Of a stretch of 64,000 bases of DNA, positions 58,065 through 62,878 are shown piece after piece. The DNA is taken from positions 62,001-126,000 of the forward strand of contig NZ_RBZQ01000007.1 of assembly GCF_003640395.1 (NCBI RefSeq). Reading direction: 5' to 3'. The position numbers and the translations under genes are program-made. Position 1 is the stretch's first letter; each line of letters begins with the position of its first letter. This DNA comes from Stutzerimonas urumqiensis (GTDB lineage Bacteria; Pseudomonadota; Gammaproteobacteria; Pseudomonadales; Pseudomonadaceae). The notes under the pieces were generated by a model. It was given only the letters and a program-made list of their open reading frames with translations. It was not told the origin of the DNA and did no database searches.

Positions 58065-61165
<3,101 letters not shown>

Positions 61166-61253
61166 GCCGCACATCATGCGTCGGGCGGGTGGCTGGCGCC
61201 GGTGAGATCCGGTCACTTCCCCGACGCGATGCCTGCGCTACGAGGAAGCCGCC

Positions 61254-62390
61254 ATCAAACCCTTATTCGCAAAAGGCCCTTCGCTCGGTGTGCGCCTGTT
61301 GGCGCTCGTCGTGCTGTCGGTCGCCCTGATGGTGGTGGACGCCCGCTTCAACTCGCTCAAGCCCGTGCGCAGCGAGATGGGACTGGTGCTGATGCCGTTC
61401 TACTGGCTTGCCGAAATGCCGGCCCGGCTATGGGACGGCATGACCGAGCAGATCACCAGTCGCAGCACCCTGATGGCCGAGAACGAAAAGCTCAAGGCCG
61501 AGGCGTTGCTGATGCAGCGGCGGTTGCAGAAGCTGGCCGCGCTGACCGAACAGAACGTGCGCCTGCGCGAACTGCTCAATTCGTCGGCGCTGGTCGACGA
61601 CGAAGTGCTTGCCGCCGAACTCATCGGCGTCGACCCCAACCCATACACCCACCGCATCCTGATCGACAAAGGTGAAAAGGATGGGGTGTTCCTCGGCCAG
61701 CCGGTGCTCGATGCCAGCGGGCTGATGGGGCAGGTCGTGGAGGTGATGCCCTATACCGCGCGCGTCCTGCTGCTGACCGACAGCACCCACAGCATTCCGG
61801 TGCAGGTCAACCGCAACGGGCTCCGCGCGATTGCCAGCGGCACGGGCAATCCCGAGCGTCTGGAGCTGCGGCATGTCGCCGATACGGCCGACATCAAGGT
61901 CGGCGATCTGCTGGTCAGCTCCGGTCTGGGGCAGCGCTTTCCGTCCGGCTATCCGGTGGCGACCGTCACCGAGGTGGTGCATGACGCCGGACAGCCGTTC
62001 GCGATCGTGCGGGCGATGCCGACGGCGGCGCTCAATCGCAGTCGCTACCTGCTGCTGGTGTTCACCGACCAGCGCACCCCCGAACAACGCGCGAACGATT
62101 CGGCGATCGCCGCCGAGCAGGCCGCCGAAGCTCCGGCTGGGGAGGCGACGCCGGCATCGGGAAGCGCCGCCACCGCCGAGCCGACACCAGCCGCACCGAC
62201 CGCCGCACCCGCCCCAGCCACACCGAACGCAACCACACCGAATACAGCCACGCCGAACGCACGTACACCGAGCACAGCCGCGCCGGGGCCATCCGATGCG
62301 CGCGGTCCGGATGCACCGCCGTCGCCGTCGAGCGAGCAGACGAGGCCGTCGACTCCGCCAGCCGTGCCTGCTGACCAGGGGGCGCAATGA
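61254..62390 (+). CDS. mreC: Rod-shape protein MreC, apparently starting at an ATC codon
   Basis: The 378-residue protein has one membrane helix near the N-terminus, a coiled coil (NEKLKAEALLMQRRLQKLAALTEQ region), a periplasmic beta-barrel domain (LIDKGEKDGVFLGQPVLDA, GDLLVSSGLGQRFPSGYPVA) and a C-terminal Ala/Pro/Thr-rich tail. It links MreB to the cell-wall synthases. The conserved start (IKPLFAKGPSLGVRLL, matching E. coli MKPIFSRGPSLQIRLI) maps to ATC 61254, five bases after GAGGAAG. No ATG, GTG or TTG exists between the in-frame stop at 61203 and that point. GTG 61290 is the first ordinary start and would remove 12 conserved residues. Confidence 0.9.
   Translation: MKPLFAKGPSLGVRLLALVVLSVALMVVDARFNSLKPVRSEMGLVLMPFYWLAEMPARLWDGMTEQITSRSTLMAENEKLKAEALLMQRRLQKLAALTEQNVRLRELLNSSALVDDEVLAAELIGVDPNPYTHRILIDKGEKDGVFLGQPVLDASGLMGQVVEVMPYTARVLLLTDSTHSIPVQVNRNGLRAIASGTGNPERLELRHVADTADIKVGDLLVSSGLGQRFPSGYPVATVTEVVHDAGQPFAIVRAMPTAALNRSRYLLLVFTDQRTPEQRANDSAIAAEQAAEAPAGEATPASGSAATAEPTPAAPTAAPAPATPNATTPNTATPNARTPSTAAPGPSDARGPDAPPSPSSEQTRPSTPPAVPADQGAQ
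62217..62276 (+). repeat. 15-bp minisatellite in the mreC 3' end
   Basis: Four imperfect 15-base units start at 62217, 62232, 62247 and 62262, based on GCCACACCGAACGCA. They encode a five-residue repeat of the ATPNA/TTPNT/ARTPS type in the C-terminal tail of MreC. Confidence 0.75.
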
Positions 62391-62878
62391 TAGGTACCCG
62401 TCCCAACAACGGCTGGGTGATCTGGCTGACGTTCGCCATCGGCCTGCTGCTCAGCGTGGCGCCGATGCCGGAATTCATGGAGGTCGGCAGGCCGCTGTGG
62501 GTGGCGTTGTTCCTGAGCTACTGGACGCTTTACGTGCCTCACCGCATCGGTATGGGAACGGCATGGTTGCTGGGGCTGGCCGCCGACGTGCTGTACGGCA
62601 CGCTGCTGGGCCAGAACGCCCTGGTGCTGACGCTGGTGGCCTTTCTGGTATTGCTGCTCCAGCAACGGTTGCGCATGTTCCCGATGTGGCAGCAGAGCCT
62701 CGTCCTGCTGGTGGTGTTCGGGCTGGCCCAGCTGGTTCGGCTATGGCTGAACGTGCTGGCCGGCAGCCCGCCGCCGCCGACGCTGCCTTTCCTTCTGCCG
62801 GTGCTGGTCAGCGCGCTGCTGTGGCCCTGGATGTTCGTCGCCCTGCGTGGCATCAGGACGCGCCTGCAGGTCAACTGA
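62387..62878 (+). CDS. mreD: Rod-shape protein MreD
   Basis: The 163-residue inner-membrane protein has five hydrophobic segments (WVIWLTFAIGLLLSVAPMP, WVALFLSYWTLYVPHRIG and others). It belongs to the MreD family of the elongasome, with the motif LGLAADVLYGTLLGQNAL. Its ATG overlaps the mreC stop (ATGA), so the two are coupled. Confidence 0.95.
   Translation: MIGTRPNNGWVIWLTFAIGLLLSVAPMPEFMEVGRPLWVALFLSYWTLYVPHRIGMGTAWLLGLAADVLYGTLLGQNALVLTLVAFLVLLLQQRLRMFPMWQQSLVLLVVFGLAQLVRLWLNVLAGSPPPPTLPFLLPVLVSALLWPWMFVALRGIRTRLQVN

Follow-up and report, generated by a model that had tools for sequence, protein, structure and literature searches.

An mreC reading frame with a probable noncanonical start codon

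At which codon does the translation of mreC start, if ATG, GTG, and TTG are all missing from the frame at the point where its similarity to E. coli MreC begins? This question is raised by the mreB-mreC-mreD locus of the window, that is, the whole stretch of 64,000 nt analyzed here, in which the three genes follow each other on the plus strand in the order annotated in E. coli. The mreB gene (60128..61165, ATG start, TGA stop at 61163-61165) shares 73.3% DNA identity with E. coli mreB, and the ATG of mreD (62387..62878) overlaps the mreC stop codon; both genes served as controls. For mreC, a sequence-only reading had stated that no ATG, GTG, or TTG occurs between an in-frame TGA 5' of the gene (61203..61205, plus strand) and a GTG at 61290, and it had proposed a start at an ATC (61254..61256, plus strand). 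When the frame was re-read and translated, the first statement proved correct, and a single CTG was found at 61233. Translation from the ATC yields IKPLFAKGPSLGVRLL, and E. coli mreC begins ATGAAGCCAATTTTTAGCCGTGGCCCG, which aligns position by position with the window residues and bears out the similarity that had been claimed. Counted from this codon, mreC (61254..62390, plus strand) comprises 378 codons followed by TGA. The encoded rod shape-determining protein MreC matches TIGR00219 with 237.9 bits (cut-off 92.75) over positions 3-278 of the 283 model positions, and its closest named database relative, among the matches listed, is from Stutzerimonas urumqiensis (97%).

The putative AUC initiation codon is located 88 bases downstream of the end of mreB. 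A Shine-Dalgarno motif, GAGGAA, is found at the usual distance from it at 61242..61247 (plus strand), and, as had been noted, the extended motif GAGGAAG (61242-61248) ends five bases 5' of the ATC. An xAGG is present at this place in 71 of 79 named relatives, and GAGG in 52. In a different frame, a GTG open frame of 157 codons (61202-61675) overlaps the mreC start. At its other end, MreC has a tail of low-complexity Ala/Pro/Thr sequence that contains TPNATTPNTATPNA-like repeats (62100-62387), and the 378 residues counted from the AUC compare with 344 in P. aeruginosa PA7.

Our preferred reading, to which we assign a probability of roughly 0.9, is that mreC is translated from AUC 61254, that an AUH codon is kept at this place throughout the family, and that its likely function is to keep MreC low relative to MreB.

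The aligned codon within the Pseudomonadaceae

At the place of the E. coli Met, the aligned codon is ATC, ATT, or ATA in all 151 Pseudomonadaceae loci (some species are represented twice), and it is GTG or TTG in none of them. These loci fall into three sets: 80 named loci (the 80 best-ranking of 228, with 74 distinct junctions), 30 loci from the same genus (the 30 highest-ranking of 56 genomes), and 41 loci of family members in which a strict sequence pattern had failed to match; ATH was found in 80/80, 30/30, and 41/41 cases, respectively. Four of the genus loci equal named loci over 105 bases. The named loci are from Pseudomonas, Stutzerimonas, Azotobacter, and some MAGs, and two of them, labeled 'Gammaproteobacteria bacterium', were assigned to the family by similarity.

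The sequence-only reading had named ATG at this codon in related strains as the sign of a sequencing error. A search of 398 Pseudomonadaceae genomes with the pattern ATG plus KP.F..KGP gave no matches, whereas ATH plus KP.F..KGP matched in 352 of them, and a reversed control matched in none. Thirty of the 352 genomes were fetched and read, and the loci chosen via the ATH pattern (L111-L140) were excluded from all counts. Among the other 46 genomes, 41 could be read directly, and all carry ATH; three had no mreC match, and two had only a fragment without the N-terminus. None of the 393 scorable family genomes (out of 398) has ATG at this codon. Because not a single ATG occurs at the aligned codon in the 151 loci, a sequencing error or chance was ruled out. 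The aligned sequences indicate that AUH is kept in the family against a one-base change to AUG. Two loci, L040 (P. matsuisoli) and L142 (a family member), retain the ATC and have an ATG three codons later (IKPMLFAKG), a possible alternative start.

A probable start codon rather than an internal isoleucine codon

A profile of 79 named loci (L040 was omitted due to its insertion) revealed that the first two bases of the aligned codon are invariant, and that the third position shows C, T, and A, but never G. The conservation of the amino acid sequence starts exactly at this codon: codons 2-12 (KPLFAKGPSLG in the window, 61257..61289, plus strand) keep their amino acids with freely varying third positions, and the codons upstream are unconserved except for the place of the Shine-Dalgarno motif. 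The usage of ATA also differs, as it accounts for 12 of the 80 aligned codons versus 14 of the 814 isoleucine codons inside these genes (Fisher p 4e-7, relatedness ignored). A gene tree built from the 80 named loci requires at least nine changes among ATC, ATT, and ATA, and none to ATG.

Among 283 ATH loci, 225 have no ATG, GTG, or TTG between the codon and the preceding in-frame stop, and in the other 58 either such a codon is present upstream or no stop was reached within the locus. In 43 of the 283 loci, ATG, GTG, and TTG are also missing from codons 2-21, and in one locus (L307) an in-frame stop directly precedes the ATC.

The neighboring genes of the same named loci gave a different picture: mreB has ATG in 80/80 cases, and mreD, which was not found in one locus, has ATG in 72, GTG in 5, and TTG in 2 of 79 cases. 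As a further control, infC was analyzed in 30 loci of the same order. No ATG, GTG, or TTG exists between the stop and the IF3 domain in 14 of them, and the control was not uniform, as four loci (L419, L428, L437, and L441) offer only canonical codons. In the infC gene of the window's own genome (L413, G000:C2:65386-65886), a run of ATC-ATT-ATT precedes KREMRQ, in agreement with the AUH start known for this gene, although there is an in-frame ATG four codons further on.

Distribution of the AUH codon beyond the family

The analysis was extended to the rest of the order, to the class, and to the order of E. coli. All loci were selected without knowledge of the codon, and low-ranked matches are under-represented. 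For the rest of the order, 241 of 244 genomes gave a match, and 69 loci were hand-picked from the upper places so that, if possible, each family listed was represented; 62 have ATH, 5 ATG, 1 TTG, and 1 was unclear. For the class, 80 loci with at most two per family were picked from the upper ranking among the matches listed (246 of 274 genomes matched), and they comprise 65 with ATH, 9 with ATG, 1 with GTG, 1 with TTG, and 4 unclear cases; because low-ranked matches are under-represented, 65/80 overstates the share of ATH in the class. Altogether, the two samples include 14 ATG loci. In E. coli's order the distribution is reversed, with ATG in 45 and ATH in 5 of 50 loci (30 best and 20 picked, from 111 of 119 genomes matched). 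The five ATH loci (L396, L401, L407, L409, and L412) belong to families that are less similar to E. coli. Ten further Gammaproteobacteria, mostly lower-ranked and including four from the window's order, were judged by eye; six have ATG, two GTG, and two ATH. Eight scattered loci of the class with ATG at or next to the codon (L267, L325, L277, L281, L310, L312, L319, and L331) belong, to the extent of our sampling, to other orders than that of E. coli.

The aligned codon had to be moved in 16 loci: by one to three codons in 11 loci of the family, order, and class sets, by one codon in L396, L399, L401, and L409, and by seven in L395. L210 and L245 were placed by hand, and L209, L265, L289, L315, and L323 were left as unclear. 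Outside of the Gammaproteobacteria, the mreC N-terminus did not align with the window query. In each of ten loci from other Proteobacteria, an in-frame canonical codon was found upstream, which means that AUH is not needed there, and nothing more.

Taken together, the sampled sequences indicate that AUH is general in the family, usual in the order, and common in much of the class, without being universal. The AUC start that the sequence-only reading had proposed is supported, but the scope given to it was too narrow, since AUH is widespread in the order and in a large part of the class sample. As most loci of E. coli's order, further Gammaproteobacteria, and some loci of the samples have ATG, an AUH start is not required for MreC in general. 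An unrooted tree of the loci of the order, the class, and E. coli's order requires at least 13 changes between ATG and ATH; the AUH codon may be ancestral, perhaps dating from deep in the Gammaproteobacteria.

Alternative starts and the annotation of MreC

The GTG at 61290 (61290..61292, plus strand; codon 13) would be chosen by a gene caller restricted to ATG, GTG, and TTG, and the database entries for this protein (P0001) and for a close relative (P0004) indeed begin there. The similarity upstream of it would then be untranslated or vestigial. Database N-termini in general are divided: of the best 120 of 5363 homologues, 50 begin at the M-KPLF-like AUH start, 48 lack the N-terminal segment, and 22 are longer. 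Several lines of evidence render initiation at this GTG very improbable. The conserved amino acids of codons 2-12, with their free third positions, lie in front of it and would be lost, as the sequence-only reading had pointed out in ranking the GTG as an inferior fallback. Codon 13 is ATG, GTG, or TTG in only 41 of the 79 named relatives, and something else in 38 (ATT, GTA, GTT, ATC, GTC, ACG, GGA, or GCG); on the tree it switches at least 14 times. The only motif that had been noted for it, AAAAGG at a distance of 13 bases, is present at 61271-61276, and pairing with the anti-Shine-Dalgarno sequence in front of codon 13 is weaker than in front of the ATH, both in the window (-3.2 versus -5.9 kcal/mol) and in the relatives (medians -3.4 versus -7.2). 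In addition, a protein starting there would probably have almost no residues in front of the likely membrane helix. The GTG was rejected as a conserved mreC start on the basis of the conservation profile, the Shine-Dalgarno pairing, and the switches on the tree. An alternative in the opposite direction is that the ATH encodes an internal isoleucine, translation starting upstream at a less usual codon or entering by a frameshift from another frame. The window has a CTG (61233) seven codons upstream of the ATC and an out-of-frame ATG (61229), and an upstream GTG or TTG is present in some relatives. Yet, many relatives have in-frame stops one to five codons upstream of the ATH, with varying codons in between, the upstream peptide is unconserved, and an upstream start would place the Shine-Dalgarno motif inside a coding stretch at a fixed distance from the ATH; the excess of ATA at this position also argues against an internal isoleucine. 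With stops so close in the relatives and no conserved upstream peptide, an upstream or frameshifted start is scarcely credible, and was rejected.

The databases already hold the AUH start of mreC implicitly. In many entries the AUH start has been missed, and therefore MreC is listed in truncated or extended form. The numbering of P. aeruginosa MreC appears to be affected in practice. A structural study describes the constructs 36-330 and 97-258 (PMC8137920), and chain 6zm0, judged by its length of 164, probably represents the latter. The end of this chain is residue 274 when counted from the AUC; if it is residue 258 of the published numbering, the offset is 16, and therefore published residue 1 would be at codon 17. 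This codon is a GTG in strain PA7 (L064), although the strain used for the structure may differ. The published numbering (6zm0/6zlv), and with it that of the constructs, thus appears to start at a misannotated internal GTG that lies 16 codons beyond the conserved ATC and would be located inside the likely membrane helix.

What the AUH start may achieve

If AUC 61254, with the Shine-Dalgarno motif a few bases upstream, is where the translation of mreC begins in this Stutzerimonas-like genome, the most likely function of the AUH start would be to hold the synthesis of MreC low relative to that of MreB, which is encoded in the same gene cluster; the sequence-only reading had raised this as a possibility. 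The low output would be brought about by a start codon that is discriminated against by IF3, as in infC. Initiation at the AUC in the cell, a low output of MreC, and any role of IF3 are what we infer from comparative data, and the conserved avoidance of AUG suggests that weak translation initiation is preserved.

The Shine-Dalgarno motifs were compared across the loci of the order, the class, and E. coli's order. Pairing is stronger with ATH (median -6.9 kcal/mol, n=132) than with ATG (-3.7, n=59; -3.0 for E. coli mreC), a contrast that rests mainly on the one clade that holds most of the ATG loci. The contrast agrees with a weak net initiation that has been conserved. When the trade-off was tested phylogenetically, only two supported independent pairs were available, which left the test underpowered. 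Exceptions occur on both sides, as 17 of the 59 ATG loci reach -5 or better and 12 of the 132 ATH loci do not, and the five loci with ATG in the window's order go against the trend with strong motifs (median -6.8). In the named loci, the median pairing of mreC (-7.2) is like that of mreD (-7.4) and stronger than that of mreB (-3.5); therefore, the Shine-Dalgarno motif itself is no mark of weak mreC translation.

These data bear on two further explanations, both of which accept the AUH start. One of them holds that the start is real but serves no regulatory purpose: little MreC is needed, and any combination of a weak start and a Shine-Dalgarno motif is equivalent. The on the whole weaker motifs of the ATG loci would fit this idea, as if net strength were kept, and we regard it as a serious contender at somewhat below even odds. 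Against this idea, GTG and TTG are rare: they occur in 0/151 loci of the family and in 3/149 loci of the order and class sets, an argument tempered by the 2 GTG among the ten later-added Gammaproteobacteria. The lack of ATG in every scorable family genome (393/398) also speaks against it. The other explanation is that mreC is translated by reinitiation of ribosomes that have terminated at the end of mreB and tolerate a non-AUG start. The end of mreB was recognized just upstream of mreC in 307 of 350 loci, with a shortest gap of 16 bases. However, the two genes overlap in none of the 307 loci, which makes reinitiation less likely, the median spacing in the 80 named loci is 95.5 bases, and mreC has a Shine-Dalgarno motif of its own; we consider coupling to mreB unlikely. 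An RNA element at the junction was also considered and rejected: the folding of 61163-61300 hardly exceeds that of shuffled sequences (z -0.83, with 41 of 200 shuffles as good), and a search with Rfam gave one viral match inside mreC that is far below threshold (17.9 bits versus a gathering value of 82, E 0.046).

Our preferred reading, initiation at the AUC with a low output of MreC, leads to a more specific and more doubtful idea, namely, that mreC is gated by IF3. A protected AUH codon might link MreC synthesis to the ratio of IF3 to 30S subunits, and AUG lineages such as E. coli might use a weak Shine-Dalgarno motif instead. If so, the capacity for cell-wall elongation would be tied to the translational state of the cell, and the AUG lineages would keep the output low in another way, without that link.

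Comparison with known noncanonical starts

A noncanonical mreC start was found in no paper in our literature searches, which covered few subscription journals and preprints. The accessible parts of PMC5945682, PMC2170320, and PMC3831641 contain nothing on the mreC start. In a proteogenomic study of Xanthomonas, peptides support an ATT start of infC, and the main text is without any word starting with 'mre' (PMC5559785).

The E. coli mreC has the same gene order and the same N-terminal segment as the window, but differs in its ATG start and its weak Shine-Dalgarno motif. To our knowledge, few conserved non-AUG starts have been described, the best known being that of infC. E. coli pcnB, a non-ribosomal gene, has an AUU start that limits its expression, and resembles mreC in this type of start codon. 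The likeness to infC is the AUH-type start, and in the window's order many infC loci have AUH codons in the appropriate position. According to PMC5472188, the infC start is ATT in E. coli and ATC in Streptomyces, IF3 acts against such noncanonical start codons, and infC is repressed by IF3. In contrast to infC, which feeds back on itself, MreC is a cell-wall elongation scaffold, and control of mreC by IF3 is hypothetical. The closest parallel outside of translation that this paper offers is Streptomyces sigR, which, like mreC, combines a conserved noncanonical start with a strong ribosome-binding site: its start is GTC in 32 of 34 species, and it has been misannotated to a nearby canonical codon (PMC5472188). 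It differs from mreC in that the codon is GUC rather than AUH, that it has been described for Streptomyces, and that its repression by IF3 is, in the same source, demonstrated by experiment (PMC5472188). A non-AUG start conserved through a whole family in a cell-shape gene would be a case outside of the translation machinery, and, next to infC and sigR, the mreC start offers a simple test of whether the fidelity function of IF3 controls a physiological process.
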